From the NCBI RefSeq assembly GCF_004104055.1, contig NZ_QOVJ01000007.1, positions 62,001 to 126,000 on the forward strand: a stretch of 64,000 nucleotides of DNA, in the 5' to 3' direction. Position 1 is the stretch's first letter; every line of letters begins with the position of its first letter. The position numbers and the translations under genes are program-made. Of the stretch, positions 756 to 63,839 are shown in pieces. This stretch comes from Leeuwenhoekiella aestuarii. GTDB taxonomy: Bacteria > Bacteroidota > Bacteroidia > Flavobacteriales > Flavobacteriaceae. The notes below the pieces were generated by a model, which saw nothing but the letters and a program-made list of their open reading frames with translations, made no database searches and was not told where the DNA came from.

Positions 756-769
756 CGATTGAGTAAATT
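756..769. promoter_or_regulatory. Candidate LacI-like operator half-site shared with other glycan promoters
   Basis: CGATTGAGTAAATT matches the reverse complement of the site at 63701-63717 (CGATTGCGTAAATT) at 13 of 14 bases. It also shares TCGATTGAGT with the site at 63823. It lies in the 215-bp divergent region between the GH30 gene and the hybrid sensor gene, so it could control either. Confidence 0.45.
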
Positions 770-777
770 CGTGTACA

Positions 778-810
778 ATTTGTCTAAAATTGCGGTGTTA
801 ATTGTTCAAC
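778..810. promoter_or_regulatory. Candidate hybrid-sensor operator: TTGT direct repeats 22 bp apart
   Basis: Two copies of an AA-TTGT-(C/T)-type element begin at 780 and 802 (core TTGT), exactly 22 bp apart. The same element with the same spacing occurs upstream of the susC gene at 12924-12958. AraC-type DNA-binding domains of hybrid two-component systems commonly bind direct repeats about two helical turns apart. The site sits about 85-110 bp upstream of both divergent genes. The assignment is inference. Confidence 0.4.
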
Positions 811-887
811 CTTATTAATATTGATGAATAGCTGGGATATTTTTATAAATTGGTTACAAATTACACACTATATAATATCATTTTTAC

Positions 888-3800
888 ATGAAAAGAACTT
901 TAAGATTTATTCTATTTCTTTTTATAACAACGGTTGTATACTCTCAAAATGAAAAAGCAAATCTTAATGATCTCCATTTTCATTTAATAAATTCTCAAAA
1001 TGGTCTTTCTAACAATGTCATAAATGACATTACACAAGATTCTCTTGGCTTTATTTGGATAGCAACTTATGATGGTCTAAACCGGTATGATGGTTCTCAA
1101 TTTTTAAAATTCAGAAAAAATCTTGAAGATGATATAAATGGAGTTTCTAATAATTATATTCAGGAATTATTACTACTTCAAAATCAAAAATTACTCATTG
1201 CCACAGATGCCGGACTCAATGTTTACGATCTCAAATCAGAAACCTTTCATATATTTTCTACTGAAGAAGGTCTACTAGATAATAGTATTAGCGCCTTAGC
1301 TTTAGATAATAATCATAATCCTGTTATAGGTACGTATCGCGGTGGTGTACAAATCGCTTCAGATAATTTTACTTTCAACGAAATCAGATTTAAAGGTACT
1401 AAGAATCAGTTATCATCTAATGAAATTTCAGCTATTGAATCTCAGGGAAAATCTATTTATTGGGTAGGTACTTATCATAAAGGTCTCAATAAAGTAACTG
1501 TAACTGGTAATCAAGTAAAAACAGAAACTATTCAGCATCCTAAACTAAGTAATTCTACGATTACCGAACTGTATTTGGATTCTGAACAGAATTTATGGAT
1601 TGCCAGTACAAATGGTTTGTTTGTAATACAACCCAATGGTGAGTTGTTATATTTAAACAAAGCAACAACTAAAAGTCAAGGCTTAAGTGATAGCAATGTA
1701 CTAGCGATTCTTGACGATAACAAAGGAAAGCTTTACATAGGTACGCGCGATGGCGGTCTTAATATTCTTGAAAAAAAGACACTGCTAGATCAATCTTTAC
1801 CATTAAGCATTAATTGGTTTTTACCTAAAGAAGATGGCTCTAGTGTTTACGACCGATCAATTACCAGCCTTTTTATTGACAAGCATAACGCACTTTGGAT
1901 GGGCACTCCTACCGGTATAAACTATGTAGATTTAATGGGTGAGCCGGCTAAAAGGGTTCAAGAAACCGACGCTCAAAATTCTATAAGCAACAACAGGGTA
2001 AGTGCTCTCGCACTAAAGTCTGAAAATCAAATCTGGATAGGTACAGATGGTGAAGGTCTGGATCTCTATGACCTGAAGGAAGGTAAAATAGCTCATTACA
2101 GAACAATTGCTGGAAACCGAAACAGTTTAAGTAATAATAATGTTTTGACTCTATTACCTGAAAATAATGATATTATCTGGGTAGGAACCTATCAAGGAGG
2201 TATTAATAAAATAAATTATAAAACAGGCGAAGTCAAACATTACTTAGAAGGGTCGCAGCAAAATGGTAGTGATGTCAGAACTATTTTTAAATCAGAGAAT
2301 AATACAATTTGGGTAGGTACAAACCGAGGAGGTCTTTTTAAATACAATAGATCGGCAGATGCCTTTGAGTTTGTGGATAGTTTAGGAAAGTTAGATATTA
2401 GAGGTATTGATGAGCGTGAAGGCCATTTATGGCTAGCAACCTTTGGTTCTGGGTTAATTAAATTCAATAAGTCTAATGGCGAAGCAGAATACATCAATAG
2501 TAACAATGTAGAGGGTTTAAACACCGATATTTTTTTTGCAATCAAAATTAAAGCAGACGATAACATCTTATTAGGAACACGTTACAACGGTTTAAAACTT
2601 TATGATCCAATAAAAAACACTGTCGAAACTTATGGAGAAAAAGATGGGCTAAGTAATAATTCTATAAATAACCTGCTCATTGAAGATGATAAATATGTTT
2701 GGATTAGCACCTACAACGGGATTGACCGCTACAATCTAGGAACCGGTACATTTAGTGATTTTAACTTTTTAAGCAATATTCAAAATGAAGGTTTAGGTTC
2801 TATTTTAAGCAATGGCAATGGAAAAATTTTTATAGGAGGTTTAGAAGGATTACAAATTATCAATACTGCTGAATTAGATCGTCTGCAACAGAAAAAAGAC
2901 ATCGTTCTAAAACGACTTTCTGTTTTAAATAAACCAATATTACCTGGATGTAAAACCATACTAAAAAATGCGTTGCCATACGAAAATGAAATAGCACTCA
3001 GTTATTTTCAAAATTCATTTTCGTTCTATTTTACAGCTTTGCAATATCCTGTAAATAAAAACATTTTGTATTCTTATAAATTAGAAAATTATAATGATTA
3101 CTGGATAGATACTCAAGAAGGTATAGCCAACTTCACAGACGTACCTCCGGGAGATTACAACCTTCAAATCAAAACCAAATCAGGTGCTGGAACAGAAACA
3201 ACAAAGAATCTAGCGATCTATATCTCTCCTCCATTTTGGAAAACATCTCTAGCTTATATTTTCTATCTATTAGCATTTTGTACGATAATCTATTTAATAT
3301 TTCGATATTATTCTGAACGGTTAAAACTCAAAAACAAATTGATTCTTGAACAAGAACAAAGACGTTTAGAACATAATTTAAATGAAGAACGATTACGCTT
3401 TTTTACCGCTTTTTCTCACGAATTAAAAACTCCTTTGACATTAATTCTGGCTCCTCTTGATAACTTATTGAGTGAAGCACACAGCAGAAGCCTTAAAAAA
3501 CAGCTCAAACTCATTAACCGAAATGCTAAAAAACTCTCTGGAGCGATTGATAAACTATTAGAGTTTAGAAAATCTGAAGAAGGACTGAGCAAACTTATTA
3601 TAGGAGCTCACAATATTTCCTATCATTTAAAGAAATGGGTTAAGAGTTACGCTCCACTTGCTATAGACAAGAATATCAAACTTAAAACCGACATCGAAAA
3701 AAGCACAACTCTTTTTGAAGTGGATATCGAAAAATTAAAGGTTATAATTAATAATCTACTTTCAAATGCTATAAAATACTGTTCTCCTAATTGTGAAGTT

Positions 3801-4943
3801 ACTGTATGCTTCTATATTAATAAAGAGACCTTAGATATAACAGTAAGTGATAACGGTGCCGGTATAGCAGCTCAGGAATTACAGGATATTTTCAATTGGT
3901 ATTATAGATCTGAAACCAGTATTCAAAAAAATGGGACAGGTATAGGTCTTGCCCTTTCTAAACGCTTTGCTGAGTTGCACAATGGTAAACTCACAGTTAC
4001 AAGCATTCCTAACAAAAAAACCACATTTTCACTAGAAATACCTAAAGTTGTTTCTCAAGAAACTGTTACAGTAAGTGCTATTGCTTTAGAAGAAAATCAC
4101 ACCTATCAGACTTCAGAACTTAAACCAGATATAGACCACTCTGACCTACAGAAAGACAACAATAAATCTATCAATGCTTCTGAAGATAGACCCCTACTCT
4201 TAATAATAGATGACAACCCGGATATTCTTGATTTTTTAGATCAAATTTTAAAAACTGATTTTGATCTTATATTCGCTGAAGATGGTGAGAAAGGCATACA
4301 GAAGGCTACTAAGTTTATACCAGATCTAATAGTCTCAGATGTGATGATGCCTAAAAAGACAGGTATAGATCTGTGCAGAGCCTTGAAATGCAATTTACCT
4401 ACAAGCCATATCCCTATAATTCTTCTTACTGCAAAAGGCAATTCTGAAAGTTTAAAGACCGGATATGAAGAAGGTGCAGATGATTATATAGCTAAACCAT
4501 TTCAACCTCAACTATTAAAAACGCGCATCATAAATCTCATACGTAATCGTAAAGCGGTTCAACGTTTTATAAATAGTAAGCAAACCCCAGAAAAAGAAGA
4601 AGAAAAAACTTCTCCAGCTCTTAATAGAGAAAAAGAGTTTTTATCAAAACTAGATGCTATAATAAATGAAAATATAGGAGGTGATACTGAAAGCGTTTTT
4701 GATATTGCTCGCGATCTGGGAATGAGTCGTACTTCACTGTATAGAAAACTAAAGTCAATTACCGGTTATAGTATAAACGAATATATAAGAAACTTAAAGC
4801 TTGAGAAAGCCGCTGATTATATAGAAAATCACGGGTACTCTGTATCACAAGCAGCTTATGAAGTAGGCTTTAATAGCCCCAAGTATTTCAGGAAAATTTT
4901 TAAAGAAATGTACGGCAAACTACCTTCTGAGTTTAAGTCATAA
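888..4943 (+). CDS. Hybrid two-component system sensor/regulator (HTCS) of the first PUL
   Basis: A single 1351-residue protein senses a glycan fragment in the periplasm and controls transcription in the cytoplasm. In order it shows a signal peptide (1-19), about 12-14 Reg_prop beta-propeller repeats with WIGT/WVGT/WIAT blades (about 25-670), a Y_Y_Y domain (about 700-780), a membrane helix (about 785-805), a HisKA domain with H-box FSHELKTPL (His844), an HATPase with N box NNLLSNAIKY and G boxes DNGAGI and GTGIGLAL, a receiver with phospho-acceptor Asp1151 in SDVMMP, and a C-terminal AraC-type HTH (about 1265-1350). All signalling residues are present. It faces the GH30 gene and lies tail-to-tail with the susCD operon, so it is the likely activator of that PUL. 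Confidence 0.96.
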   Translation: MKRTLRFILFLFITTVVYSQNEKANLNDLHFHLINSQNGLSNNVINDITQDSLGFIWIATYDGLNRYDGSQFLKFRKNLEDDINGVSNNYIQELLLLQNQKLLIATDAGLNVYDLKSETFHIFSTEEGLLDNSISALALDNNHNPVIGTYRGGVQIASDNFTFNEIRFKGTKNQLSSNEISAIESQGKSIYWVGTYHKGLNKVTVTGNQVKTETIQHPKLSNSTITELYLDSEQNLWIASTNGLFVIQPNGELLYLNKATTKSQGLSDSNVLAILDDNKGKLYIGTRDGGLNILEKKTLLDQSLPLSINWFLPKEDGSSVYDRSITSLFIDKHNALWMGTPTGINYVDLMGEPAKRVQETDAQNSISNNRVSALALKSENQIWIGTDGEGLDLYDLKEGKIAHYRTIAGNRNSLSNNNVLTLLPENNDIIWVGTYQGGINKINYKTGEVKHYLEGSQQNGSDVRTIFKSENNTIWVGTNRGGLFKYNRSADAFEFVDSLGKLDIRGIDEREGHLWLATFGSGLIKFNKSNGEAEYINSNNVEGLNTDIFFAIKIKADDNILLGTRYNGLKLYDPIKNTVETYGEKDGLSNNSINNLLIEDDKYVWISTYNGIDRYNLGTGTFSDFNFLSNIQNEGLGSILSNGNGKIFIGGLEGLQIINTAELDRLQQKKDIVLKRLSVLNKPILPGCKTILKNALPYENEIALSYFQNSFSFYFTALQYPVNKNILYSYKLENYNDYWIDTQEGIANFTDVPPGDYNLQIKTKSGAGTETTKNLAIYISPPFWKTSLAYIFYLLAFCTIIYLIFRYYSERLKLKNKLILEQEQRRLEHNLNEERLRFFTAFSHELKTPLTLILAPLDNLLSEAHSRSLKKQLKLINRNAKKLSGAIDKLLEFRKSEEGLSKLIIGAHNISYHLKKWVKSYAPLAIDKNIKLKTDIEKSTTLFEVDIEKLKVIINNLLSNAIKYCSPNCEVTVCFYINKETLDITVSDNGAGIAAQELQDIFNWYYRSETSIQKNGTGIGLALSKRFAELHNGKLTVTSIPNKKTTFSLEIPKVVSQETVTVSAIALEENHTYQTSELKPDIDHSDLQKDNNKSINASEDRPLLLIIDDNPDILDFLDQILKTDFDLIFAEDGEKGIQKATKFIPDLIVSDVMMPKKTGIDLCRALKCNLPTSHIPIILLTAKGNSESLKTGYEEGADDYIAKPFQPQLLKTRIINLIRNRKAVQRFINSKQTPEKEEEKTSPALNREKEFLSKLDAIINENIGGDTESVFDIARDLGMSRTSLYRKLKSITGYSINEYIRNLKLEKAADYIENHGYSVSQAAYEVGFNSPKYFRKIFKEMYGKLPSEFKS

Positions 4944-6207: not shown

Positions 6208-6217
6208 TATTCTAATT

Positions 6218-9426: not shown

Positions 9427-12400
9427 TTAGAAGTCTACGCGAAGACCTAGGTTATATACCGATTGAATAGGATAACCTAAACCGTTACCTCCCATTTCAG
9501 GATCCCATAATTTAAAAGAACTCCATACGGCAAGGTTCGTTCCGCTAAAATAAAAGCGAGCTGCTTTTAGCCCCAATTTGTTGGTTAATGATTCTGATAA
9601 ATTATAACCCGCTTCAACCGTTTTAAGTCTTAAAAATGCTCCATCACGTTTCCACCAAGTAGAAACCTGATTATTGTTCTCAATAAACGTATCTCCAAGT
9701 CTTGGCCAGAAGGCATAAGAATCACGGTTAGATTCTGACCAGTAGTCATCTGCAATAACCTGAAGAAGGCCATTTTGAGCAGAACCATTAATTACAAATG
9801 GCGCGATATTCTGAGGATTTATAAAGAATGAAGTTCGTGCCGCTCCTTGGAAGAATATGCTCAAATCAAATGCTTTATATCCTACAGTTCCACCAAAACC
9901 GTAAATAATCTCAGGAATAGTAGGGTATCCAATAGGAACTTTATCATTTTCTGTAATCACACCATCTCCATTAACATCACGATATTTTATGTCTCCTCCG
10001 GTGTATTCCCCAAACTGAGTAGGAGAGTTATCAACCTCATTTTGATCAACAAAAAGTCGTTCTGCAATATACCCATATACCTGACTTACATTCTGACCTA
10101 TTTGAGACCTGTAAGAGAGCTCATCAGGATAAGATACCTCATCATATTGTAAAATTTCGTTTGTAGAGTAAGTCATATTACCTCTGGCCTGTACAAACCA
10201 ATTATTACCTATTTGCTTATTATAATCTAAAGACAAATCCATACCTCTACTCTCCACTTCGCCAAAATTGGTTTGAGGTGTAGCGGTTAAACCAATTACA
10301 GAACCGATATTAGCTCGGGTTTGTAATATGTTATCTCTACGTTGTCTAAAAATGTCTACTGTGAAATTCAGCGATTTGTAGAACTCTAAATCAAGCCCTA
10401 TGTTAATTTGTTCTGATTCTTCCCATCCAATATTAGGGTTTGCATAACGAGAGGTGAATACCCCAGGTCTGTAATTTCCAAACTGCTCTCCAAAAGTGGC
10501 TCCATAATTCCCATCATTAAGGTTTACGTTAGAAAGGTAAAAGAACCTGTCATTTACGTTACCTATCTGATCATTACCTACAAGACCATAGGTACCTCTT
10601 ATTTTAAAGTTAGTTACAACGTTTTTGATGGGTTCCCAAAATTTCTCTTGAGATACACGATAAGCTAAACCAAATGATGGAAAAAATCCATATCTGTTGC
10701 CCAGCGCAAAACGCTCTGAACCGTTATACCCAAAATTGACTTCAGCTAAATATTTAGCATCATATCCATAAGTAAATCTACCAGATATACCATGGTTCCG
10801 GTTAGCTAAAGAATTTTGTACACTACCTGCATTACCTTGCTCAAAACTTGATAATAAATTAATAAGCGTACCAGAAACTGCATGCTTTTCATTAAATGTA
10901 CGATTATAGCTAATTGCAGCTTCCAGATAAATTCTTGAATCTAAAAGTTTATCTCCTTCTGAGTAGTTTAGAAATTCTGTACCGGTTTCTCCAATAGAAT
11001 TTGGGCCTCCGTCATTTAAAACATTGATATCCAATTCACCTGTTTCAGGGCTTATCCTAGATTCATAAAAGAATGGATTATACTGTCTGGATACCTGATA
11101 AAAACTATACCTTCTCAAATATCCCATCGCACGAGCCGTAAGCCCTTCGGTTATAAAGCCAAAATCTTGTTTTATTTCTAGTTGGGGCTGAATAGTAGAA
11201 GCCTTAGATGTCTGATAACCTCTAACCATTTCTGCATAAGGGTTTATAAGTAATGTATTGTCTCCAGAACGCGTTCTTGCCCCACCAAAAAGAGGATGCT
11301 CAATAAAAGGCAATTGACTAGCTGGATAAATCTTTGGAAATTTAACAGGGTTAGACCATAACGCAAGATTAAATATACGACCTCCACCACCTACGGGACC
11401 GTTATAGTCATCAAATTGACCATAAACTCTAATTATTCCTGTGGTTGTTGGTGTTAAATCAATATCAACATTACTACGTATGGAGTAATTTTTAAGTTTT
11501 ATATTACTATTGAAGTTATTGATCCCTTCAACATCAAGAACTCCGTTGTCAACATTATAGGTTCCAGATATGTAATATCTGGCATTTTCACCACCACCAC
11601 TGGCGCTTAAATTAATTCCTTGGTTAATTGTATAGTCTGATATTAAATCATCTATCCAGTTATTACTAGGATATAGTAAAGGGTTATCCCCAGCTGCAGT
11701 ACGCTCAATTTTACTCTGGCTATATGGCAAGATCGCATTAGGATTACGTGTCAACGCCGCTTCGTTTGCCAACTGCATATAGGTGATATTATCTGCAAAA
11801 TTAAAGTTTCGAGCGTTTGAAGATACTCGGGTTTCAGATCTAAAGTGAAATTTAGTTTTACCAGACTTACCCATTTTGGTTCGGATAACTACAACTCCGT
11901 TTGCCCCACGTGCACCATATACAGCAGATGCTGCGGCATCTTTTAATACAGAAAATGACTCTATATCGTCTGGTTGTAGTCTTGCCATATCATTTGTCGT
12001 AGATTCAATACCATCTATAAGTATTAAAGGATTTCTTTTTCCAGAACCAAATGTTCCTAATCCTCTAATAAAGAAGTCTGAATTATCTGCGCCAGGCTCA
12101 CCACTACGCTGAAAGGCAATCATACCAGAAACCCTACCTGCCATCATTGTTGTTAAGTTACTTGTTGGACCTTTCAACTCTGCAGGATTAATTGATGTAA
12201 TAGAGCTTACAAGGCTACTCTTCTTTTGATTAGTGTTAAAACCAATAACTACTGTTTCTTCTAAAGATTCTAAATCAGACTGAAGATTAACATCCATAGT
12301 ATTATTGGTCGAAACTTTTATCTCAATGGTTTTGAAACCAACGTATGAAAAAACCAAAGTCGCACCTTCAGAAACAGTAATAGAGTAATTCCCATCAAAA

Positions 12401-12688: not shown

Positions 12689-12718
12689 GTGAAGTATTAC
12701 GAAATCGATATAGTCAAA
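12689..12718 (-). promoter_or_regulatory. Candidate susC promoter overlapping an operator
   Basis: On the minus strand, TTTG (12715-12718) is followed after 18 bp by TACTTCAC (12689-12696). This resembles the Bacteroidota -33 TTTG / -7 TAnnTTTG promoter with a good -33 and a partial -7. The palindromic motif at 12693-12707 lies between and over these elements, which fits a repressor that blocks the promoter. Confidence 0.45.
12693..12707. promoter_or_regulatory. LacI-like operator copy 1 upstream of susC (left arm of inverted repeat)
   Basis: AGTATTACGAAATCG is a perfect 15-base inverted repeat of 12866-12880, with arm starts 173 bp apart. Its core CGATTTCGTAAT (other strand) matches the motif found upstream of pckA and the second glycan locus. 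It overlaps the proposed promoter. Confidence 0.55.
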
Positions 12719-12865
12719 TACCTATAGCTCTTATTTTATTAGCCTATTAGTTTTTAACTTATGAATTAAAAAACTGATGTTATTAAAATGATAACAACAA
12801 CTAAGAAGCTGAACAAATTTTATAGAAAACCGATTTTTAGAGACTAAATCTGTATTAAAAAAAAA

Positions 12866-12880
12866 CGATTTCGTAATACT
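12866..12880. promoter_or_regulatory. LacI-like operator copy 2 upstream of susC (right arm of inverted repeat)
   Basis: CGATTTCGTAATACT is the exact reverse complement of 12693-12707. The 173-bp separation would allow repression by DNA looping with a tetrameric or paired regulator. The extended AAACGATTTCG is identical to the start of the site upstream of pckA. Confidence 0.55.
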
Positions 12881-40331: not shown

Positions 40332-40444
40332 GTGATGCTCAAGTAGAACAACGGGTATTTGCTTGGCAATATTTTGATGCCGAAGCTGTACTCATCAAAA
40401 ATCAAGTTATTCAATTGAAAAAACCTCTTCAGGAAGAACCTATA

Positions 40445-53218: not shown

Positions 53219-55672
53219 CTAAAGCTTTACCTCAACAGCAGCCCCTGAATAATCTACGATTTGAGGTGTAGAAACCGAACCGTCTGCTCCTATTTTTACA
53301 ATTTGAAATTTACGCTCCTGAAGCATTCCGTCAAAATTCCCATTACGATCTGCGATCTCAAGAGTTTGGTTAGCATCATTCCACGTAAATGAGATGGTAG
53401 AATAGGCTCCGTTCTCGTAGTTATAGTTATCAAATTCATCTTCATACAGGCTAAAACTTCCGTCTGCCCCTTCATAAACACGAATTTCCAGATTGTCCCA
53501 GGGCTTTTCTTCGGCATACTGCACTTCAGGACCTATGGGCAAAATGCTTCCGGCTTTTACATACAGCGGAATTGTATTTATAGTTGTTTCTTTTGCGATT
53601 TCCTGACCGCCTTCAAACTTTTCGTTCGTCCAGTAATCATACCATGCGCTTCCCTCGGGTAAATACACCGTTGCCGATTTGGTCTCCGTAAAATCAACTA
53701 TTGGGTATCCTTCGGCTCCTCGTTCTTTGCCTTTATTCCAGCCGGTTTCTTCATCTACTTTTATAATTTTCTCAGGCGTGTATTGTGCTTCGAGTACCGG
53801 CGCTACAAGAATCGCATCACCAAACATATACTCCTCTTTAAGATCCCAGGTTTTTTTATCCTGCGGGAAATCCATCACTAGAGCGCGCATAAAACTATCC
53901 TGATTGTGGGTGACCTCCCATGAAGTCGTGTAGATATAGGGAAGTAAACTGTAGCGTAATTCGATTGCATTCTGAATGGCATCGTAAATAGCATCGCCTT
54001 TTTCGCCAAAATGATAAATCTCGCGCTTCATCTCAGTACCGTGCGAACGCATCATTGGGGTAAACGCCCCGTATTGCATCCAACGCACATATAATTCCTG
54101 AAACAATGGATTTACAGAAGCTGTGCCGTCATTCCAAGACTTGTTGTAAGCCCCCGCGAAAAACCCACCAATGTCTGTATTGAAATTGGGATTACCGGTA
54201 AGTGTAAAATTCAGACCGGCAGGAATCTGGTTGCGCAAAGACTCCCAGGATGAACCTAAATCGCCCGACCATACATTGGCCCCATAACGTTGTTGTCCGG
54301 CAAAACCCGAGCGTGTAAGGATAAACACCCGCTTATCTGACGACTGCTCACGCTGATGATCATAAACACCTCCTACCGTCTCCAGCGGAAAAGCGTTACG
54401 CACCTTGCGGAAAGAGCCCAGATAGGTCTCATTGTTGTAATCTTCATCCTTGATATCTAAATGATCAGGCTCGGTAGAATCCATCCACCAACCGTCTATA
54501 CCTAAAGAAAATAAATTCTTGCTTAAATATTCCCAATAAATATCACGCGCCTCCGGATTGTACGGATCGTAAACCTGTACGCCGGAAGGATAATTCATAT
54601 CAGGTGGCCAACCTTCTTTACCCGACTGTGGCCAGGTCTGGAAATCCATTAACATATTTTTTTCTTTCAGTTCTTTAAACTGAGGCGTTTCGGGACCAAA
54701 AGAGGACCAAATTGAAATGATAAGATGCGCATTAAGCCCGTGAACATCGTCAACAAATTTTTGAGGGTCCGGAAATGCGGGGTTTCCAAAATCCATCGCG
54801 TTCCAATGGTAATTATCACCCCAATATTGCCAGTCCTGAATAATTCCATCTAGCGGAACTCCCAATTCCCGATGCTTTTGCACCACCCCTACGGTTTCTT
54901 CCTGACTTTTATAGCGCTCCCGGCTTTGCCAAAAACCATAAGTCCAAAGCGGAACCATAGGAACTTCACCGGTAAGATCACGCATTTCTGCAATAACGGC
55001 ATCAGCATTGTCGCCCGCCATCACATAATAATCAATACCATCACCTACCTGAGAAGAAAAAGAAGTTTCTGCAGTATCATCTTTAAACGTGGTTGGTGAA
55101 TAATTATCCCAAAAAACGCCATAGCCTTTTGGCGATTGAAAAAAGGTCGAAAAATCCCAGGTATTATTTTGAACCATTTCTACTTCTTGATTGCGTTGAG
55201 ACATTTTACCATTTTGCAAAATCCCCAGACCGTAAATGGGTTCGTCGGCTTCTAAAGTCCAGCCTTGTTTAACGGTAAATGTTTCGTTCCCATTATCTAC
55301 AAAAGGTTTAAAAGAACTTGTGCTTTCACTTAGCAAAAGACTTCCGTCCGGTTTAAAAAAACGTATCGAATGGGTTAGCGTATCTAGCTCCACACGCAAT
55401 TCTGCCGTGGTCAAAGCAAAGCCGTTTTCCATGTCTTGGACTCCAAAAGAAACCTCTTCTGGTTTTTTGATTACGGAAAGACTCTTTTTTTCAAAAGGAT
55501 GTCCTTCAAGATGTTTCTGAATACGAACTATAGAAGGAGAAACAAATTCAATACGCACATTTGTAGAATCGATTTGCGTTTTTACGCCAGAATTAAATGT
55601 TTCATAGGATTGGCGAGCACAGCTCGTAAAGATTAAAAAAGCGCTTAGTGCACCTAAAAAAATAGATTTCAT
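53219..55672 (-). CDS. GH31 alpha-xylosidase/alpha-glucosidase-type lipoprotein
   Basis: 817 residues: signal peptide with lipobox FTSC (Cys18), an N-terminal beta-sandwich, and a TIM barrel with nucleophile Asp398 (GWWMDSTEPD) and acid/base Asp471 (WSGDLGSSW). The motifs EPIYGLG, PLWTYGFWQSRERYKSQEE and WPPDMNYPSG are typical of the XylS/xyloglucan alpha-xylosidase branch, so removal of xylose from xyloglucan oligosaccharides is likely; alpha-glucosidase remains possible. The PA14 insert of some alpha-xylosidases is not seen. It is last in a minus-strand cluster, 119 bp after the FG-GAP gene. Confidence 0.88.
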   Translation of the reverse strand: MKSIFLGALSAFLIFTSCARQSYETFNSGVKTQIDSTNVRIEFVSPSIVRIQKHLEGHPFEKKSLSVIKKPEEVSFGVQDMENGFALTTAELRVELDTLTHSIRFFKPDGSLLLSESTSSFKPFVDNGNETFTVKQGWTLEADEPIYGLGILQNGKMSQRNQEVEMVQNNTWDFSTFFQSPKGYGVFWDNYSPTTFKDDTAETSFSSQVGDGIDYYVMAGDNADAVIAEMRDLTGEVPMVPLWTYGFWQSRERYKSQEETVGVVQKHRELGVPLDGIIQDWQYWGDNYHWNAMDFGNPAFPDPQKFVDDVHGLNAHLIISIWSSFGPETPQFKELKEKNMLMDFQTWPQSGKEGWPPDMNYPSGVQVYDPYNPEARDIYWEYLSKNLFSLGIDGWWMDSTEPDHLDIKDEDYNNETYLGSFRKVRNAFPLETVGGVYDHQREQSSDKRVFILTRSGFAGQQRYGANVWSGDLGSSWESLRNQIPAGLNFTLTGNPNFNTDIGGFFAGAYNKSWNDGTASVNPLFQELYVRWMQYGAFTPMMRSHGTEMKREIYHFGEKGDAIYDAIQNAIELRYSLLPYIYTTSWEVTHNQDSFMRALVMDFPQDKKTWDLKEEYMFGDAILVAPVLEAQYTPEKIIKVDEETGWNKGKERGAEGYPIVDFTETKSATVYLPEGSAWYDYWTNEKFEGGQEIAKETTINTIPLYVKAGSILPIGPEVQYAEEKPWDNLEIRVYEGADGSFSLYEDEFDNYNYENGAYSTISFTWNDANQTLEIADRNGNFDGMLQERKFQIVKIGADGSVSTPQIVDYSGAAVEVKL

Positions 55673-55791: not shown

Positions 55792-58700
55792 TTAGGCTTT
55801 GATTTTGAAGATGGTTAGGGGCCTGTTATTATTGGCTATCAATAAATAGCTTTCGTTGCCTATATTCATCTGCTTCATATGCTTTGCATTGAGGTCATTA
55901 TAAAAACTGATGTCTTTATACGGCTTCAACCCACCTTTTGAATCTCCCAGCAATACGTAGCCCACGTTTGAATCGTATTTAACCGTTTCTACTTCAGCTT
56001 CGTGAATAGCGCCTATTCCAACAACATCCAGGTGACCATCTTTATTTATATCACTAAATGCAAACGACATCGTTGGCCCCAGCTGCGCGACAACCGGCAG
56101 GTGTTTAATTCTAAAATCACCATTCCCTAAATTTTCCAAATAAACCGACTCAAATTCGGTAGCTTGTTTGTGATACGAATTAGCAATCTGCTCGCTGCCG
56201 TAAATATCAGTTAGTGTAGAATTGGCAAACTCCTTATAGGTTTTGATTTTTTCGCTTACAAAAGAATTCTGCATCGTAGAACATTCTTTACCGCGAACGG
56301 GCACCAGACTGCCTTTGTACACCTTACTCAAAATCATATCGTAATTGGCATCTCCGTCAAAATTGTTACCGTAGATATGCAGCGGCTTTTCTGAGGAGGG
56401 ATGAAACTTATTATTTGCACCCAGGTTTCCTACGAAATAATCCAGATCCCCATCCTGGTCAAAATCAATTTCAGCAATGCTATTCCACCAGCCGAATGTC
56501 TCTTTTAACGCTTCTATTTCTGAAGGCTGAAAGCTTCCGTTTTGATTCTCAAAGACCGTAATGGGCATCCACTCCCCTGCTACCAACAAATCGGGATCGC
56601 CGTCCCCGTCGTAATCAGACAAAAGCAGGTCATTGATCAATCCCGCTTCAGCAAAATCTGGTGCAACCGTTTTGGTAACATCTACAAATTTTCCACTTTG
56701 GTTTTCTAAAATATAAGAGCGTGGAGACAACGGGTATTTACCGGGAACAATTCTTCCTCCTACAATTAAATCCAAATCACCGTCCTGATCGTAATCTAAA
56801 GAAACAACCGCTTTAGATCCTGTTAGCATTTTTGGCAAAGCCGAAGAAGCGCTAAAACTTCCCGTACCATCATTCAGATAGAGCCGGTCTTGTAGTTTGC
56901 TATCATTTTCCGCAAGCTCATAACCGCTGCTGGCGACATATAAATCCAAATCCCCATCCCCGTCTGCATCAAAAAAATGCGCTCCATTATCTTCATAGGC
57001 TTTATCTGACTCAAAAGCGGCTTGTGGAATTTGTTCAAATTTTCCATCCTTTTGCTGAATGAACAACTGAGCTGCCTGGCCGGAACCACCACCCAGAAAT
57101 ACGTCTTCAAGTCCGTCATTATTTACATCTGCCACTTCAAAAGCCGGACCTTGCTGCGATTGTTTTTGCGGTAATAATACCTGCCGTGAAAAATCATTAA
57201 AATCATTTTCTTCATGCGCATAGGCCAAACCAAGCTCTCGCGGATCTATACGTTCGAAATGTTCTGGACGTTCATTAGGCGTTTCAACTGAATTTGTGGC
57301 TTCAGCCTCAGATAAGCTGAGGATTTGATTGGCCTGAATATTTTCTAAAACCGAAACTTTCCCGGTATTCCAAACCACTTCTATTTTTGAGATTTGCTCT
57401 TCTTCTCCTACGCCAAAATTCAAAACCGGGGAAACGGAAGATTGATATCCCCGCGATAAGTAGAGTTCCTGATACTGCTGTGTGCTATCTGTAAACACTT
57501 TTACCTTAGAACCTATTGCCAGTGGATTTTTGGCATCGCCCTTGAGCTTAAGACTTATGTAATTTGCGGTGGAATTGTTGCGGTAAATACCAGCCTCATC
57601 CTCCAGATTGTTTACTACCAGATCCAGATCACCATCGTTATCTAAATCCCCGTAAGCAACCCCATTTGAATTCACCGCCTGAGTAAAACCCCAGTCCTCG
57701 ATCACTTTTTTAAAGGAAAGGTCTTTGTTGTTTTTAAAAGCATAATTCTGAAGCTTGTCTGAAGGCATTTCCTTGAGAATGCTGTCAATAGGCATTTGCT
57801 CCAGCGAACCCTCGTTGGCATCGAGAAACCTGCCAAAATCCTGATTGGCAATCTCGCGTTTAATTCCGTTTGTGATGAAAATATCTTTAAAGCCATCGCC
57901 GTCAAAATCGGCAATGAGTGGCGCCCAGCTCCAGTCGGTTTTTGACACTCCGGAAACCTGAGCGATATCGGTAAAATACCCATTCCCGTTGTTCAAATTA
58001 AGAACGTTGGACATATACGGGTAATGGAAGCCGGCCTCAACAATCCACCAGAATCCTTCGGTGTTCATACTGGCCATATTTTGCTTTCCACGCTGATGAT
58101 CTTCCGCAGACATATCTAAAACCAGTAAATCGGGTAAAAAGTCGTTGTTGATATCGGCAAAATCTGAGCCCATACTGCTGTACGAGATGTGCTTCATTTT
58201 GGTATTGAGGTCATTAGCAAACGTCCCGTTTTTATTGTTGATGTACAGCTTATCGGGCGTGATGAAGTCGTTAGCCACAAAAATATCGGGCCAGCCGTCA
58301 TTATTAAAATCTCCGATAGAAGCACTCAAACTGAATTCTTTGTTGATTAAACCGCTACCCGGAGTTACATCGGTAAAACTTTTGCCGTCATTGCGGTACA
58401 GGTGATCTGAAGTTTGCGGGTAAAATTGCTCGTCGTTGACAATGGCATTGAGGTCAACCGAATTTAAAAAGTCATCGCGATGGTTGATCAAATACATATC
58501 AAGATCGCCATCCTGATCATAATCCAGAAAATACACCTGAATTGAAAAACCATCGTCAGCCAGGCCCCATTTGGCAGCTTCTTCGGTAAAGGTGCCGTCT
58601 TTTTGATTGATATACAGCTTGTTTCGGCGTTCTAAACTGTTATCCAGAGAAGCCGATTTACAGACGTAAATATCCAGCCAGCCATCAGCATTAATATCGA

Positions 58701-59079
58701 TCATCGTGACCCCTGTCGTCCAGCCTTCGGCATCTGCCACACCGGCTGCTTCAGTAATATCGTCAAATTTAAAATCTCCTTTATTCAGGTAAAGCTTATT
58801 CGAATTTTGGTTTGAAGTGAAATACACATCTTCCAAACCATCATTATTTACGTCACCTATAGCTACACCGCCTCCATTATACATATCGTAATAATTAAGA
58901 ATGTTGAAAGCCGCCGTTTCGGTCACGGTATTTTTAAAATGAATCCCGGAGTCTTCATTTGAGATTTCGGTAAAAAGCGTTTCAGCCGTGCTCGTCTTTT
59001 TCTGAAAACCCGAGTCATTACAGGAGTACATTGTCCCTGCAAACGCAACCACAACAAAAAAATAAGTCAAGCGCATCAT
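55792..59079 (-). CDS. FG-GAP/VCBS repeat protein with ASPIC/UnbV domain (CRTAC1-like)
   Basis: A 1095-residue exported protein with signal peptide and SCND lipobox-like sequence. It has many FG-GAP/VCBS repeats with Ca-binding DxDxDG loops (DYDQDGDLD, DFDGDGFKD, DADGDGDLD), an ASPIC/UnbV module in the middle (about 510-590, NYISLKLKGDAKNPLAIGSKVKV, GYQSSVSPVLNFGVGEEEQISKIEVVW) and a second set of repeats. Such proteins are common in Bacteroidota glycan loci; a surface binding or scaffold role is inferred. It lies 30 bp downstream of the acetylesterase gene. Confidence 0.87.
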   Translation of the reverse strand: MMRLTYFFVVVAFAGTMYSCNDSGFQKKTSTAETLFTEISNEDSGIHFKNTVTETAAFNILNYYDMYNGGGVAIGDVNNDGLEDVYFTSNQNSNKLYLNKGDFKFDDITEAAGVADAEGWTTGVTMIDINADGWLDIYVCKSASLDNSLERRNKLYINQKDGTFTEEAAKWGLADDGFSIQVYFLDYDQDGDLDMYLINHRDDFLNSVDLNAIVNDEQFYPQTSDHLYRNDGKSFTDVTPGSGLINKEFSLSASIGDFNNDGWPDIFVANDFITPDKLYINNKNGTFANDLNTKMKHISYSSMGSDFADINNDFLPDLLVLDMSAEDHQRGKQNMASMNTEGFWWIVEAGFHYPYMSNVLNLNNGNGYFTDIAQVSGVSKTDWSWAPLIADFDGDGFKDIFITNGIKREIANQDFGRFLDANEGSLEQMPIDSILKEMPSDKLQNYAFKNNKDLSFKKVIEDWGFTQAVNSNGVAYGDLDNDGDLDLVVNNLEDEAGIYRNNSTANYISLKLKGDAKNPLAIGSKVKVFTDSTQQYQELYLSRGYQSSVSPVLNFGVGEEEQISKIEVVWNTGKVSVLENIQANQILSLSEAEATNSVETPNERPEHFERIDPRELGLAYAHEENDFNDFSRQVLLPQKQSQQGPAFEVADVNNDGLEDVFLGGGSGQAAQLFIQQKDGKFEQIPQAAFESDKAYEDNGAHFFDADGDGDLDLYVASSGYELAENDSKLQDRLYLNDGTGSFSASSALPKMLTGSKAVVSLDYDQDGDLDLIVGGRIVPGKYPLSPRSYILENQSGKFVDVTKTVAPDFAEAGLINDLLLSDYDGDGDPDLLVAGEWMPITVFENQNGSFQPSEIEALKETFGWWNSIAEIDFDQDGDLDYFVGNLGANNKFHPSSEKPLHIYGNNFDGDANYDMILSKVYKGSLVPVRGKECSTMQNSFVSEKIKTYKEFANSTLTDIYGSEQIANSYHKQATEFESVYLENLGNGDFRIKHLPVVAQLGPTMSFAFSDINKDGHLDVVGIGAIHEAEVETVKYDSNVGYVLLGDSKGGLKPYKDISFYNDLNAKHMKQMNIGNESYLLIANNNRPLTIFKIKA

Positions 59080-59109: not shown

Positions 59110-61062
59110 TTATAACTCAATTCTAAAAGGTGAAGCCGGTAGACCTTCCTTATTGTATAAATTGGGATTATCAGGGTTGTCGGCCCAGGCATAGCGTAAA
59201 TATTTTGGTTCGGGGATTTCATCGCTCCAAACGATAACGCGGTCGCCTTCAATTTTTGCATGCGCCCGCACAAATTTACCGTCTTCCCCTGCCAGCGCAA
59301 ATTCGCTCAGAGGTTCGCCATCATTACTTACCAGACCACTTCCTGTATGTTCAAAATTCAAAATCACTTTACCATCTTCAACGGTAGCGTTTTCATAAAT
59401 AGGCCCTGAATACACTAAATCTTCATCATAGGCCAACTTCAATCCGGCAAGGGCCATACGCTCCCCCACGTCTTTTTTATTGTCCGGGTGAATGTCATTC
59501 CATTCGCCCAAATCAATATTTACCGTCATCGCCGTATTGGAATTCTGTAAAGCTTTAAGTTGCGACTCCCTCAATTCGGCCCAACTGCTTTCTTCCGGTA
59601 AATAGGAAACATCCATAAAATTAGGCAACTGTGCATATATAAAAGGTGCTTCGGGCTGCTGCAAAACACTGCGCAAGCCTGAAATTAAAGCCATCATATA
59701 TTCATCGTAAGCTTGAGGATTACCCGTGTTGCTTTCGCCCTGATACCACAAAATACCTTTGACCGGTAATTGCACATAAGGCGCTATCATCCCGTTGTAT
59801 AAGGCAGCAGGCTCATTTTGTGGATTAATGCGACGCACCGGTTCTCCCATTAAGTTATTTCGCGAACGAACAAAAGGTTTAAACACCTCACCTACTTTAT
59901 ACTGCCAGTAGCCTTTAAGGTCAACAGTATCCTGCCCGGTAAAAATATAATAGGGTTTATCAGGAACAAAACCTCCCTTGCCATTATAATTGGTGACTTT
60001 GATCGTAAACGTATTCTTTCCGGGCTTTAATAAAGTATCCGGCACATCATAGCGGCGTTGCGGGTATTGATAGGTTTTATTCCCCACCAATACGCTATTG
60101 ATATACACTTCGTCAGCATCTACAATACGCCCCATAAACAGTCGGGCTTTTTTGCCGACCATAGACTTTGGGATTTCTACTTCTCTGCGATACCAGACGA
60201 CGCCGTTTAGATCCTTAATTCCCTGATCTTCCCAGTAACCCGGAATATTAATTCGTCTCCAGTTTTTAGGTTCAAAATTTACATCATACCAGGGAAGCGC
60301 TCCTGTCAAACCCTTATCCCTGATTTCTTTAGGGCCGGAATTAACGGGTTGAAATTGCTTCTGGCGGTTTATAAACGCAGTATCTTTATTTTCTTCAATG
60401 ATCTCAAGTTTTTCAGGAAAATTGGTATAGCCTTCTTCGGGAATCCAGGCTTCAATGGGAGTACCCCCCACACTGGCATTGATTAACCCAATTGGAATCT
60501 GGTATTTCTCATAGATTTTTTTAGCAAAGAAATAAGCTACCGCTGAAAAAGGGCGGACTTCCTCCCCCACAGCTTTTTGCCATTCACCTCCGGTAAGATC
60601 TTCCTCAGGACCGGACAAAACAGGAGTGGTAGGAACTTTGAAATGTCTGATGTTGGGATTATTTGCAGTAGCAATTTCTTCCGCGTAGCGCACATCGTGA
60701 ATATCAAGCTGATGCACCATATTAGACTGGCCGGTACACAACCACACGTCTCCAATTAAAATATCATCAATTTCGAGCTGGTTATTACCCGAAATACGCA
60801 TTTGAAAAGGTCCGCCTGCTTTCATTTCAGGGAGTTCTATGCTCCATTTTCCATCTTTAGCAGTGGTGGTTTTATACTGCTTTCCTTTAAACGAAAGTGT
60901 GATTTTTTCGCCGGGATCTGCCCAGCCCCAAACCGGCACTCTAGCATCCCGCTGCAACACCATCCCGTCACTTATTAAAACAGGTAATTTTACTTCAGCC
61001 TGTACCGAAAGACTCAAGCATAAAATAAAAAAGGTGATGCCGGTTATTCTTTTAAACTTCAT
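59110..61062 (-). CDS. SIAE-type carbohydrate acetylesterase (CE20-like) with inserted jelly-roll
   Basis: 650 residues with signal peptide. The SGNH-type esterase core has the nucleophile motif CTGQSNM (Ser113), GVGGTPIEAW-like SVGGTPIEAW, GILWYQGESNT and a C-terminal Asp-x-x-His region (WNDIHPDNK). A GH2-like sugar-binding jelly-roll is inserted (about 265-375, WRRINIPGYWEDQGI... VVWYRREVEIPKSMVGKKARLFMGRIVDADEVYINSVLVG). This layout is known from sialate O-acetylesterase relatives, including plant-glycan esterases (CE20) working with xyloglucan enzymes. Deacetylation of xyloglucan or xylan is inferred from the GH31 and GH3 neighbours. It follows the GH3 gene by 7 bp. Confidence 0.88.
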   Translation of the reverse strand: MKFKRITGITFFILCLSLSVQAEVKLPVLISDGMVLQRDARVPVWGWADPGEKITLSFKGKQYKTTTAKDGKWSIELPEMKAGGPFQMRISGNNQLEIDDILIGDVWLCTGQSNMVHQLDIHDVRYAEEIATANNPNIRHFKVPTTPVLSGPEEDLTGGEWQKAVGEEVRPFSAVAYFFAKKIYEKYQIPIGLINASVGGTPIEAWIPEEGYTNFPEKLEIIEENKDTAFINRQKQFQPVNSGPKEIRDKGLTGALPWYDVNFEPKNWRRINIPGYWEDQGIKDLNGVVWYRREVEIPKSMVGKKARLFMGRIVDADEVYINSVLVGNKTYQYPQRRYDVPDTLLKPGKNTFTIKVTNYNGKGGFVPDKPYYIFTGQDTVDLKGYWQYKVGEVFKPFVRSRNNLMGEPVRRINPQNEPAALYNGMIAPYVQLPVKGILWYQGESNTGNPQAYDEYMMALISGLRSVLQQPEAPFIYAQLPNFMDVSYLPEESSWAELRESQLKALQNSNTAMTVNIDLGEWNDIHPDNKKDVGERMALAGLKLAYDEDLVYSGPIYENATVEDGKVILNFEHTGSGLVSNDGEPLSEFALAGEDGKFVRAHAKIEGDRVIVWSDEIPEPKYLRYAWADNPDNPNLYNKEGLPASPFRIEL

Positions 61063-61069
61063 GTGTTTT

Positions 61070-63337
61070 TTAGTTTACTGCAAATTCTACTTCAGCCATT
61101 TTAGAAGCCCCTAATGTCTCACTGCGTTTCATAGGGCTTGATCCCCCTACATATAGTCTGAATTTACCGGGTTCAATAATTTTAGACCCGTCTTCCTGAA
61201 CAACCTGAAAACTTTCAGGCTTAATCTCAAATGTAACTTTTTCAGAAGCACCGGGTTCTAGTGTAACACGGCGGGTATTTATAAATTGAGAATTCGGCAC
61301 GCGTACCGAAGCTTCCAAATCAGAAATATAAACCTGCACCACTTCGTCTGACTTTATTTTTCCGTTATTCTTAACGGTTACCTCGAGACTTACAGACTCT
61401 TCTGCAGAAAGTTCTGTCTTATCAAGAGTAGCGTCGCTGTATTCAAATTGGGTATAGCTAAGTCCAAATCCAAACGGATACATCGGCTCTTCATTCATAT
61501 ATTTATACGTGCGGCCTTCCATAGAATAATCATCATAAGCAGGCAACTGATCTAAAGATTTTGGAAACGTAATAGGTAATCTACCGGATGGTGAAACATC
61601 GCCAAAAAGTACATCTGCAATTGCAGTACCTCCTTCTTCACCGGGATACCATACATAAAGCACGGCATCTGCCAGTTCCTGAACTTTGGAAAGATCTACC
61701 GGACTTCCACCGGTTACAATGGCAATAAGTGGTTTGCGATCTTCGGGGTTTCTATCTGCCATCGCTCTTAGATCTTCCAGATATTGAATTTGATTAGGTG
61801 GTAAACCATAGTCTAAACGATCACCCGCAGTATCTGAATCTATAGAGTCACCCTCTTCGCCCTGAAGCGTACTTGAAAGACCCAAAACCACCAGCGTCAC
61901 ATCGCTGTTCGCGGCATTACCGGTCGCATAATTAATGGGATTTCTCGAGTCTTTATTCAACATCGCGCCCTGGCGGTATTGCAACTGACTCGTGGGACTG
62001 ATTGCTGCGCTGATACCTTCTAAAATGGTAACCATATTAGAGTTTACGCCGTAATAATTGCCTAAAAGCACTTCGGTACTTGTAGCATTAGGTCCGGTAA
62101 GAAAATATTTGGGAAGGTCTTTCTTTAGCGGAAGAATTCCGTCATTTTTTAAAAGCACGATGCTTTTTTGAGCAGATTCGCGTGCCAAAGCACGGTGTTC
62201 GTCATTATTTACTACATCAAGCGAAAGCGAATCGTATTTGTTGCTTCCTCTTGGGTCTAATAGTCCCAGCTTGAAACGTGTCTTGAGCAAGAGCGCTAAC
62301 TGCTCATCTATTTCCGCTTCGGTGATCAGGCCCTGCTGAACAGCTTCAGGCAATGCACTATACGTGTCACCACAGTTTAAACTTACTCCGCTTTTTACTG
62401 CCATAGCCGCAGCACCGGCTTTAGAAGGCGCGGTACCGTGCCCACCCTGACCTTTTGCTAAATATAAATCTACTAAAGCCGCACAATCGCTCAGAATGTG
62501 TCCATCAAAATTCCAATTTTTTCGCAATACCTCATCCAGTAAATACTTATTCGTACAGCAGGGTTCACCATTAGTACTGTTGTAAGCGCACATTACAGCT
62601 TCAACATTTTCATTTACCAGCGCTTCAAAAGCCGGTAAATAGGTTTCGTATATATCTTTTAAGCTTGCCGTAGCATTAAATTCATGACGCAATTGTTCAG
62701 GGCCGCTGTGTACAGCGAAGTGTTTGGCGCAGGCAGCAGTTTTCAAATGGTCAGGATCATCGCCTTGCAGGCCTTTGACAAAAGCAACTCCTATTAAAGA
62801 CATTAAATACGGATCTTCACCGTAGGTCTCCTGTCCTCTCCCCCAACGCGGATCTCTAAATATGTTGATATTGGGTGTCCAGAAACTCAGACCATTATAT
62901 CGATTGTATAATCCTTTTTCACTGGTTGCATTATATAAGGCCCGTGCCTCGTCTGATATTGCATTGGAGATACGATAAGCCAGATCTGCATCAAAGGTGG
63001 CTCCTATTCCTATCGCCTGAGGAAAAACCGTAGCTGCAGAAGCCCTTCCAACCCCGTGAAGCGCCTCATTCCAATAATCGTAAGGCGGAATATTTAAACG
63101 CTCTATAGCCGGAGTACTATTCATCATCTGAGCTGCTTTTTCTTCAAGAGATAATCTCGAAATCAAATCGGCTACGCGCTCATCTACAGATAAAGAAGTA
63201 TCATAAAAAGGAAAGTCAGGGTTTGATATTTCCTCCTTTTCAATCGTTTGCGATGACCTGTTTTGATCAGTATTACAAGACAGGATAATCAGACACATAA
63301 TTAGAAGAGCCGCACGATAGGAAGAAAAATAACTCAT
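61070..63337 (-). CDS. GH3 beta-xylosidase-type lipoprotein
   Basis: 755 residues, lipoprotein signal with lipobox ILSC (Cys21). The GH3 sequence is of the plant-type xylan beta-xylosidase / arabinofuranosidase branch: YDYWNEALHGVGRA, FWTPNINIFRDPRWGRGQETYGEDP, KHFAVHSGPE and nucleophile Asp284 in ILSDCAAL. The C-terminal fibronectin-like domain follows (PLYPFGFGLSYTQFEYS-like YPFGFGLSYTQFEY, then SLEVTVKNNGKIKSDEVVQVYI). It heads the minus-strand cluster and has a LacI-like operator 47 bp upstream. Substrate xylo-oligosaccharide is likely; beta-glucosidase is the alternative. Confidence 0.92.
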   Translation of the reverse strand: MSYFSSYRAALLIMCLIILSCNTDQNRSSQTIEKEEISNPDFPFYDTSLSVDERVADLISRLSLEEKAAQMMNSTPAIERLNIPPYDYWNEALHGVGRASAATVFPQAIGIGATFDADLAYRISNAISDEARALYNATSEKGLYNRYNGLSFWTPNINIFRDPRWGRGQETYGEDPYLMSLIGVAFVKGLQGDDPDHLKTAACAKHFAVHSGPEQLRHEFNATASLKDIYETYLPAFEALVNENVEAVMCAYNSTNGEPCCTNKYLLDEVLRKNWNFDGHILSDCAALVDLYLAKGQGGHGTAPSKAGAAAMAVKSGVSLNCGDTYSALPEAVQQGLITEAEIDEQLALLLKTRFKLGLLDPRGSNKYDSLSLDVVNNDEHRALARESAQKSIVLLKNDGILPLKKDLPKYFLTGPNATSTEVLLGNYYGVNSNMVTILEGISAAISPTSQLQYRQGAMLNKDSRNPINYATGNAANSDVTLVVLGLSSTLQGEEGDSIDSDTAGDRLDYGLPPNQIQYLEDLRAMADRNPEDRKPLIAIVTGGSPVDLSKVQELADAVLYVWYPGEEGGTAIADVLFGDVSPSGRLPITFPKSLDQLPAYDDYSMEGRTYKYMNEEPMYPFGFGLSYTQFEYSDATLDKTELSAEESVSLEVTVKNNGKIKSDEVVQVYISDLEASVRVPNSQFINTRRVTLEPGASEKVTFEIKPESFQVVQEDGSKIIEPGKFRLYVGGSSPMKRSETLGASKMAEVEFAVN

Positions 63338-63383: not shown

Positions 63384-63400
63384 TTACGCAATCGGTTGCA
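63384..63400. promoter_or_regulatory. LacI-like operator upstream of the GH3 gene
   Basis: TTACGCAATCGGTTGCA contains the dyad GCAAyCGrTTGC with central CG, the hallmark of LacI-family operators. It starts 47 bp before the GH3 start, and the adjoining TTTG on the minus strand (63399-63402) could be its -33 box. Confidence 0.6.
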
Positions 63401-63700
63401 AACTAAAAATAATTTAGCATTTTACCACCATTTTTGAGAACATAATATTATCTAAAGAGAAAATTATCATCTTATCAATTTTAACTAGCACTATTAAATC
63501 GTTTAAAAATTTAGCTTCTATAGTGTAGATCAAACACTTTAAATCGTAAAAATTTACCAATCTGAGAACTAGTTCTAATAAATAAAAAGTGGTTAACACC
63601 TAATTCTTTATTGAATTTAAGAATAAACAAACTTTATAAAATACTGAAAATCAAAATTTTATTAATTTTATATAAATCCTAAAAAATATTAACACAAAAT

Positions 63701-63717
63701 TTACGCAATCGGTTGTG
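63701..63717. promoter_or_regulatory. LacI-like operator overlapping the promoter of the right-edge gene
   Basis: TTACGCAATCGGTTGTG is identical to the site at 63384 over the first 15 bases. It overlaps the proposed -33 box of the plus-strand gene. Confidence 0.6.
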
Positions 63718-63743
63718 TGGTACGTGAGATTTATATACATTTG
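63712..63743 (+). promoter_or_regulatory. Promoter of the right-edge gene
   Basis: GTTG (63712-63715) is followed after 20 bp by TACATTTG (63736-63743), a full match to the -7 consensus TAnnTTTG. Transcription would start near 63750, giving a leader of about 185 bases. Confidence 0.55.
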
Positions 63744-63822
63744 AAAATAATGCATATAGTACTAAAGACAATAACTGTCCTTATTACATTTTATTTTTCT
63801 TAATTATTCCAAATTATACTAA

Positions 63823-63839
63823 TAGCGAAATCGATTGAG
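63823..63839. promoter_or_regulatory. Third LacI-like operator, in the leader of the right-edge gene
   Basis: TAGCGAAATCGATTGAG shares TAGCGAAATCG with the pckA site and TCGATTGAG with the site at 755. It lies about 80 bp downstream of the proposed transcription start, where a bound repressor could act as a roadblock. Confidence 0.52.

Follow-up and report, generated by a model that had tools for sequence, protein, structure and literature searches.

The window studied here is a stretch of 64,000 nucleotides from Leeuwenhoekiella aestuarii, a member of the Flavobacteriaceae (contig NZ_QOVJ01000007.1, positions 62,001 to 126,000). It holds a first polysaccharide utilization locus (PUL), the beginning of a second, xylan-type locus at its right edge and, between them, a gene for phosphoenolpyruvate (PEP) carboxykinase. 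This pckA gene (pckA2) is a second copy; the core copy, pckA1, is on contig C1 of the same genome (G000, 4.43 Mb). A preliminary description of the window had pointed out a palindrome, similar to the operators of LacI-family regulators, that recurs at seven intergenic sites and would link glycan genes to pckA. Such a link is supported by the site upstream of pckA2 and much more strongly by a palindrome found inside the core pckA gene across the family. The connection between LacI-type regulators and pckA, well supported as a prediction from genome comparison, goes further than the original observation.

Sites were scored with two matrices and a sequence-only model. Matrix 1 was built from 15 sites at LacI loci, all from outside the window. 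Matrix 2 (20 bp) was built from 25 outside sites, namely these 15 and ten pckA codon sites of the genus. The model was derived from the same 25 sites, and its E-values are rough, to about fivefold. The sites and the genes beside them are as follows.

747..766: the site "756", a weak, poorly palindromic and unsupported match (6.9 bits, rank 7 with matrix 1; outside the top 14 of matrix 2)
9427..12612, minus strand: SusC of the first PUL
12697..12716: probable half-operator of LacI type that precedes the susC gene of the first PUL (rank 5 with both matrices, E 0.11)
12857..12876: probable half-operator of LacI type, upstream of the same susC (rank 4 with both matrices, E 0.02)
51031..51050: predicted LacI-type operator TTTAGCAAACGATTTCGCTA, some 45 bp ahead of the start codon of pckA2 (rank 6 with matrix 1, rank 3 with matrix 2, E 0.08)
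51085..52704, plus strand: pckA2, second ATP-type PEP carboxykinase, 539 amino acids (PF01293), without an intragenic palindrome
61070..63337, minus strand: GH3 glycoside hydrolase, which heads the leftward operon of the xylan-type locus
63384..63403: predicted LacI-type operator TTACGCAATCGGTTGCAAAC, upstream of GH3 (rank 2 with both matrices and the model; kept in the congener G009)
63701..63720: predicted LacI-type operator TTACGCAATCGGTTGTGTGG, overlapping the upstream part of the likely susC promoter (rank 1 with both matrices and the model)
63823..63842: predicted LacI-type operator TAGCGAAATCGATTGAGTTT, closer to the start of the xylan-type susC (rank 3 with matrix 1, rank 6 with matrix 2; kept in G009)
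63936..64000, plus strand: xylan-type SusC (TonB-dependent receptor), start only; it runs on into L118

All seven cores are indeed in the window, with exact starts at 756 (+), 12696 (-), 12866 (+), 51040 (+), 63382 (-), 63699 (-) and 63821 (-), although some of the positions first reported were wrong by up to 8 bases. Every one of the seven is noncoding, while by a mechanical open reading frame (ORF) rule only 8.5% of the window is. With matrix 1 they take ranks 1 to 7: the top two, well clear of chance, score 23.8 and 19.8 bits, the third 13.2 and the remaining four 6.9 to 11.2. With matrix 2 the first six ranks go to six of the noted sites, all noncoding (22.5, 18.1, 17.2, 16.4, 14.4 and 14.1 bits), whereas noncoding DNA of the same make-up should give 0.04 matches that reach 12 bits; no coding position of the window gets to 12 bits. 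The neighbouring 60 kb (L117-L119) give two matches with this matrix, at 12.5 and 13.8 bits, both within ORFs. The model finds the six sites at E 0.006-0.24 for the window, and its best other matches there are at 63241 inside GH3 (E 0.25) and at 43553 (E 0.41). The seven sites were originally picked by their mutual likeness, and their ranks are therefore no blind test, but the training sites were obtained independently of them.

An even palindrome of 16-22 nt with a central CG is seen at 63384 and 63701, at the pckA codon sites and at sites upstream of LacI genes. At 12697 and 12857, which are closer to half-sites, it is weaker and asymmetric, and at 756 it is lacking. The view that the palindromes are operators of LacI-family proteins with a central CG is supported, since the same palindrome recurs at LacI genes and adjoining operons in relatives. 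It holds for six of the sites, which look like genuine targets of LacI-type regulators with binding predicted, and fails for 756, a poor palindrome for which the model gives no match up to E 10 in the window. The window sites fall into at least two sub-types, CGATTGCG and CGATTTCG, and as predicted operators they probably belong to at least two regulators.

The three weaker sites (12697, 12857 and 51031) could also be half-sites that arose by chance. Two results weigh against our interpretation here. The four lowest matrix 1 scores are within reach of a Markov null of the whole window, whose mean maximum is 11.4 bits and highest value 17.4; this includes the three sites at issue, at 9.85-11.2 bits. 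Further, comparative support is wanting for the first-PUL pair, as no region homologous to 12697 and 12857 was found in the G009 and G002 stretches searched. Yet all three sites are noncoding and reach 14.4-17.2 bits with matrix 2, above the 12 bits for which 0.04 matches are expected, and the pckA2 site is present in the congeners G002 and G009 in a more palindromic form, AAACGTTT. We consider a chance origin unlikely, if less so than the other alternatives discussed below.

The strongest sites of the window, and 63823 with them, lie between two divergent transcription units. Leftward runs the GH3 operon (GH3, SASA esterase, FG-GAP/ASPIC-UnbV protein, GH31) and rightward SusC-SusD, downstream of which are GH43, esterases, GH3, GH127 and GH95. 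All three sites of the gap are kept in G009 between GH3 and SusC: 63701 is inside a perfectly conserved block of 40 nt, and 63823 is retained although its flanks have diverged. Similar sites are found in the SusC/GH3 gap of G002, on another contig, and beside a SusC in G005, as well as before GH10 in G002 and before GH43-CBM6 in G009. Site 63701 overlaps the first part of the sequence TTG-N20-TACATTTG, as read from the DNA (TTG at 63713-63715, TACATTTG at 63736-63743). By the flavobacterial promoter consensus, we take these two elements for the likely susC promoter.

As the preliminary description had said, no LacI gene lies in the window. The genome has six, and the nearest is 41 kb to the right (G000:C7:166668-167708). 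It precedes GH67, a short-chain dehydrogenase (SDR), UxuA and GH115, behind which come a glucuronyl esterase and GH43, and so stands in an operon with uronate and xylan catabolic genes, as would suit the regulator of a hexuronate/xylan regulon. The gap between this LacI gene and GH67 contains a near-perfect palindrome, TTACGCAACCGATTGCGTTA, and the LacI promoter a second and weaker one. Nine congeners (G001, G002, G003, G004, G005, G007, G009, G011 and G012) have an orthologue of this LacI with similar sites nearby. These sites are before GH67 in seven (G002, G003, G004, G005, G007, G009 and G012) and before a SusC-type gene in G001, G007 and G011, G007 having the GH67 site too. A domain scan of 17 further proteins bore out names of genes that had first been assigned by length. 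Besides this linkage at the C7 locus and in nine congeners, which is compatible with autoregulation or a target position, 26 of the 42 genomes examined with a single LacI gene have the same palindrome no more than 320 bp upstream of that gene (a raw count with no chance baseline). It occurs there with LacI proteins of two helix-turn-helix (HTH) types. Sites 63384 and 63701 match the predicted operator of the C7 LacI regulator, and 63823 probably does likewise. A separate LacI gene on C10 (L122, L364) is situated beside GH28, with GH88 13 kb away and similar sites at both; this is probably a pectin/uronate regulon.

The core pckA gene of G000 carries CGAAAACGATTTCG within codons 8-12, and most Flavobacteriaceae examined are alike. 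Our pckA table consists of Flavobacteriaceae rows, 68 in number, of which 63 have a pckA identity of at least 60%; 20 of the 39 LacI-less genomes were used for it. The palindrome CGnAAnCGnTTnCG at nucleotides 23-36 of core pckA is intact in 40 of the 49 tabulated genomes with a LacI gene and in 2 of the 14 without. Removal of the ten rows of the own genus leaves 30 of 39 among the LacI-bearing genomes. Broken down by the set of LacI genes, the site is intact in 15/17 genomes with a single MalR-like LacI, 10/14 with another single LacI and 15/18 with several (10/10 in the own genus, 5/8 outside it). The identity cut removes five MalR-like genomes that are without the site (G141, G161, G163, G180 and G200), which changes the MalR-like count from 15/22 to 15/17. 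Rows dropped from the first set are fragments (G078, G090 and the second G114 piece), second copies (G115, G139) and genomes lacking pckA (G099, G100, G102, G116). Those dropped from the second set are fragments (G151, G212), second copies (G138, G159, G216, G225, G239) and genomes with no match (G070, G087, G134, G250). Left out from the own family were G002 and G009, whose pckA1 sites were matched by the model scan, G006, whose copy has no site, G015, at 50% identity, and G016, which has no pckA.

The bias is seen at the level of codons too. At positions 8, 10 and 12 NCG codons make up 83/90 in single-LacI genomes, 45/49 in multi-LacI genomes and 11/33 in LacI-less ones, while in the rest of pckA they account for 16%, 14% and 10%, respectively. 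The residues encoded over the site differ (TKTISL, SKSISL, TQSIAL, AKTFSL) and the palindrome stays constant. LacI-less genomes are scattered over the pckA tree. In 32 of 40 cases a TAnnTTTG box is found 28-42 nt before the pckA ATG; where this box serves as the promoter, transcription would reach the site after about 50 nt. What these genomes show directly is the presence and conservation of the sites, the biased codons and the co-occurrence with LacI genes.

On balance, we lean towards the following interpretation. A LacI-family sugar regulator would control the PEP carboxykinase of Flavobacteriaceae, its operator being in pckA itself at codons 8-12, where it overlaps the protein code; the operator would tend to vanish when LacI is lost. 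This would be a Bacteroidota counterpart of PckR or Cra that acts from inside the gene, the extra pckA copy being wired by an upstream operator instead. Only G002 and G009 among the 12 congeners compared have this second copy, and in G002 it is 7 kb from the orthologous LacI gene. Two side observations concern other extra or aberrant copies. The second pckA of G021 (L217:5054-5119) also has the palindrome in its early codons, and the pckA of UBA7954 (L047), which is without the codon site, carries ACGCAAACGTTTTCGTTAC upstream instead. As to descent, pckA2 is nearer to the pckA of other genera (78% to G013, G018 and G023) than to its own core copy (69%); it was either transferred or anciently duplicated.

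Several findings weigh against this interpretation and should be stated together. LacI-less genomes keep NCG at 11/33 of the three positions against 10% elsewhere in the gene, and for this reason the bias may be partly inherited or related to coding. When corrected for the tree, the test of site against LacI has too little power to reach significance, with about 3.6 versus 0.3 of 5 supported independent pairs. A LacI-bearing clade (G013, G023, G115 and G249) has no intact pckA site, and two LacI-less genomes retain it. Within 110 nt of its start the own pckA1 has no exact TAnnTTTG box, and another five of the 40 lack it as well. The MalR promoter site of most members of the own genus is AACTTAATCGATTTAGT, and their pckA1 keeps a site of the CGAAAACG type; the promoter sites are the following.

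L121:9695-9715 and congeners L328, L329, L331, L332, L334, L335, L338 and L342: AACTTAATCGATTTAGT MalR promoter sites, eight genomes of the genus

The flanks of the pckA2 site are also well conserved in G002 and G009, so the conservation of that site says little. The perfect CGnAAnCGnTTnCG occurs 7 times in the own genome versus 25 times for a reversed control, whose GC pairs make it a poor one. Perfect sites are thus few, and the idea of a single regulon defined by one perfect pattern was rejected on these counts. A MalR-like LacI as the specific regulator of pckA was suggested by 12 single-LacI genomes and was not borne out when 30 more were examined; the counts in the table are 15/17 versus 10/14 (p 0.24), which is likewise unfavourable. 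The palindrome is common to LacI proteins of both HTH types, and this may be the reason that it made no difference to the pckA site which kind of LacI a genome has.

The preliminary description had gone further and placed all sites under one catabolite-type regulator, comparable to Cra or to CcpA, which links sugar supply to central carbon genes. The evidence does not reach so far: the genome has six LacI genes, and a local xylan/hexuronate regulator suits the strong window sites. A single global LacI protein that acts on all seven sites and coordinates glycan capture with gluconeogenesis would account for the shared core, for sites at both pckA copies and at PUL genes, and for palindromes near further genes. 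Among the latter are the gap between gltB (glutamate synthase) and a BBP2 porin gene (G000:C2:384599, L220:5596; G021:C10:153562, L213:5562) and early codons (about 16-21) of a glpK-like FGGY kinase that follows a glycerol-3-phosphate oxidase-like gene (G000:C9:13781, L225:5778). The palindrome also precedes an E1 dehydrogenase in G024. In three genomes, G024 (L200:5198), G020 (L208:494) and G021 (L215:4932), it is upstream of an AsnC/Lrp-type gene and near the 3' end of another gene, an M14 carboxypeptidase in G021 and G024. Several of the six LacI genes, however, have similar sites of their own nearby; no counterpart of the two first-PUL sites turned up in the stretches of G009 and G002 that were searched; and the kind of LacI failed to predict the pckA site.

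In a scan of the own genome, of the sort proposed in the preliminary description, the model scored 150 of 2667 first-look candidates. It gave at least 17 distinct sites at E<=10, many of them before receptor, glycosidase or LacI genes; within the candidates scored, this suggests a small set of targets. Among the 17 are the LacI-GH67 site, pckA1 and three sites of the window (63701, 63384 and 12859). Two more SusC-type promoters (C3, C4) are included, as are a DUF4249-TonB receptor pair (C12), the GH28 and GH88 genes on C10 and the early glpK codons. Others are inside coding sequence or before genes whose relevance is not evident, an M28 peptidase gene for instance. Three sites of the window, 51031, 12697 and 63823, are outside the 17. 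A match at a sodium:solute symporter (C3:361318, also in G009 and G005) was set aside as coding conservation, for it is about 340 nt inside coding sequence. Of the central-metabolism targets seen, pckA is conserved, gltB/BBP2 was found in two genomes, the AsnC-type gene in three and the others as single cases. Taken together, one global regulator appears improbable to us.

Two further alternatives concern the pckA palindrome and rank below an operator. Its codons may have been kept for the N-terminal peptide TKTIS or for codon usage. TKTIS is common and LacI-less genomes still have their 11/33 NCG codons, as this suggestion would have it. LacI-less G062, G076 and G093, however, encode TKTIS with different codons at two of the three positions or at all three, and LacI-bearing genomes swap residues and retain bases. 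We rate this explanation about as low as the global regulator, and by a shade lower. Least credible of all is an mRNA hairpin near the start codon that acts on translation with no DNA operator: the CGAAA and TTTCG arms, transcribed close to the start codon, could pair round a loop of 4 nt and both arms are changed in G022 and G276 (one genus), but 6 of the 42 matches at 40 loci have mismatched arms (CGAAA with TTGCG), the same palindrome is found upstream of LacI genes and it is mostly missing from LacI-less genomes. The constant CG of the would-be loop is weak evidence, since CG belongs to the search pattern.

The explanation that we consider likely as a whole has several parts. The sites would be LacI-family operators, with a CG(A/C)AA half-site around a central CG, read by LacI-family regulators. 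The C7 LacI would control 63384, 63701, probably 63823, its own promoter and the GH67-SDR-UxuA-GH115 operon, which together would constitute a glucuronoxylan regulon. Presumably it represses by covering the susC and GH3 promoters and is released on binding a sugar derived from xylan or uronate. Through the site upstream of pckA2, this LacI protein or a sister of it would also control the second PEP carboxykinase. In core pckA, a LacI protein bound at codons 8-12, about 50 nt past the likely start of transcription, would block elongation, and sugars would release it. Binding, direction of control, the effector and the pairing of each site with one protein are what we infer in this scheme. The nearest precedent for the pckA mechanism is PurR at purB, where elongation is reportedly blocked.

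Related systems are known. PckR, GapR and GluR are LacI-family global regulators of Alphaproteobacteria, and the predicted regulons of PckR and GapR include pckA (PMC4052901). There too a LacI-family protein is tied by a palindrome to central carbon genes. Judged by the portions of that source available, our case differs in the phylum, in the intragenic position of the core pckA site, in a target set that looks small and in a regulator that looks like the LacI of a sugar locus. The logic of coupling sugar supply to central carbon genes is shared with CcpA and FruR/Cra (FruR: PMC4052901, in the portions available); the lineage, the motif and probably the effector are different. Sites of LacI-family proteins in coding regions are less than 1% of those catalogued, LacI in lacZ and PurR in purB among them (PMC4052901). 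The pckA operator would resemble these in being within a gene; what sets it apart is that many genera of one family have it at the same place, codons 8-12.

LacI control of glucuronate, galacturonate or mannuronate genes in Bacteroidota is represented by the LacI-family proteins UxuR, KdgR, UxaR and UxmR of Bacteroides (PMC3878776) and UxuR2 of Algoriphagus (PMC5507952), and the C7 LacI resembles them in its place in a UxuA/GH67 operon. In the accessible parts of these sources pckA is absent from the former and mentioned once in the latter, about HexR in Gammaproteobacteria. The xylan PULs of Gramella flava, with lacI, susC-susD, GH10, GH43 and GH67, whose susC/susD are induced on xylan (PMC5306329), are likewise Flavobacteriaceae xylan loci with a lacI gene; in the sections available of that account no operator is described and carboxykinase is not mentioned. 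A literature search, with most subscription papers beyond its reach, recognised no LacI operator in flavobacterial pckA. In the literature searched, the coupling of polysaccharide use to central metabolism is little described for Bacteroidota outside gut genera. Here a predicted operator inside pckA is kept at base level across many genera of one polysaccharide-degrading family. Operator scans that are restricted to upstream DNA will overlook intragenic sites of this sort.

The remaining features of the window are these.

888..4943, plus strand: hybrid two-component sensor with an AraC-type HTH, presumably the first PUL's own regulator
53219..55672, minus strand: GH31 glycoside hydrolase
55792..59079, minus strand: FG-GAP/ASPIC-UnbV protein, 1095 amino acids; a protein of equal length and domains is beside the orthologous LacI gene in G002
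59110..61062, minus strand: SASA-type carbohydrate esterase of the GH3 operon

The GH30 gene earlier placed near the first PUL's sensor does not stand: the gene at 4993-6270 encodes a DUF4998/DUF5013 protein, and no GH30 is present among the 14 proteins first scanned. Finally, a gene with a Pvc16_N domain and an AAA ATPase gene occupy 39568-41308, a pairing that we take to be as in contractile injection systems.

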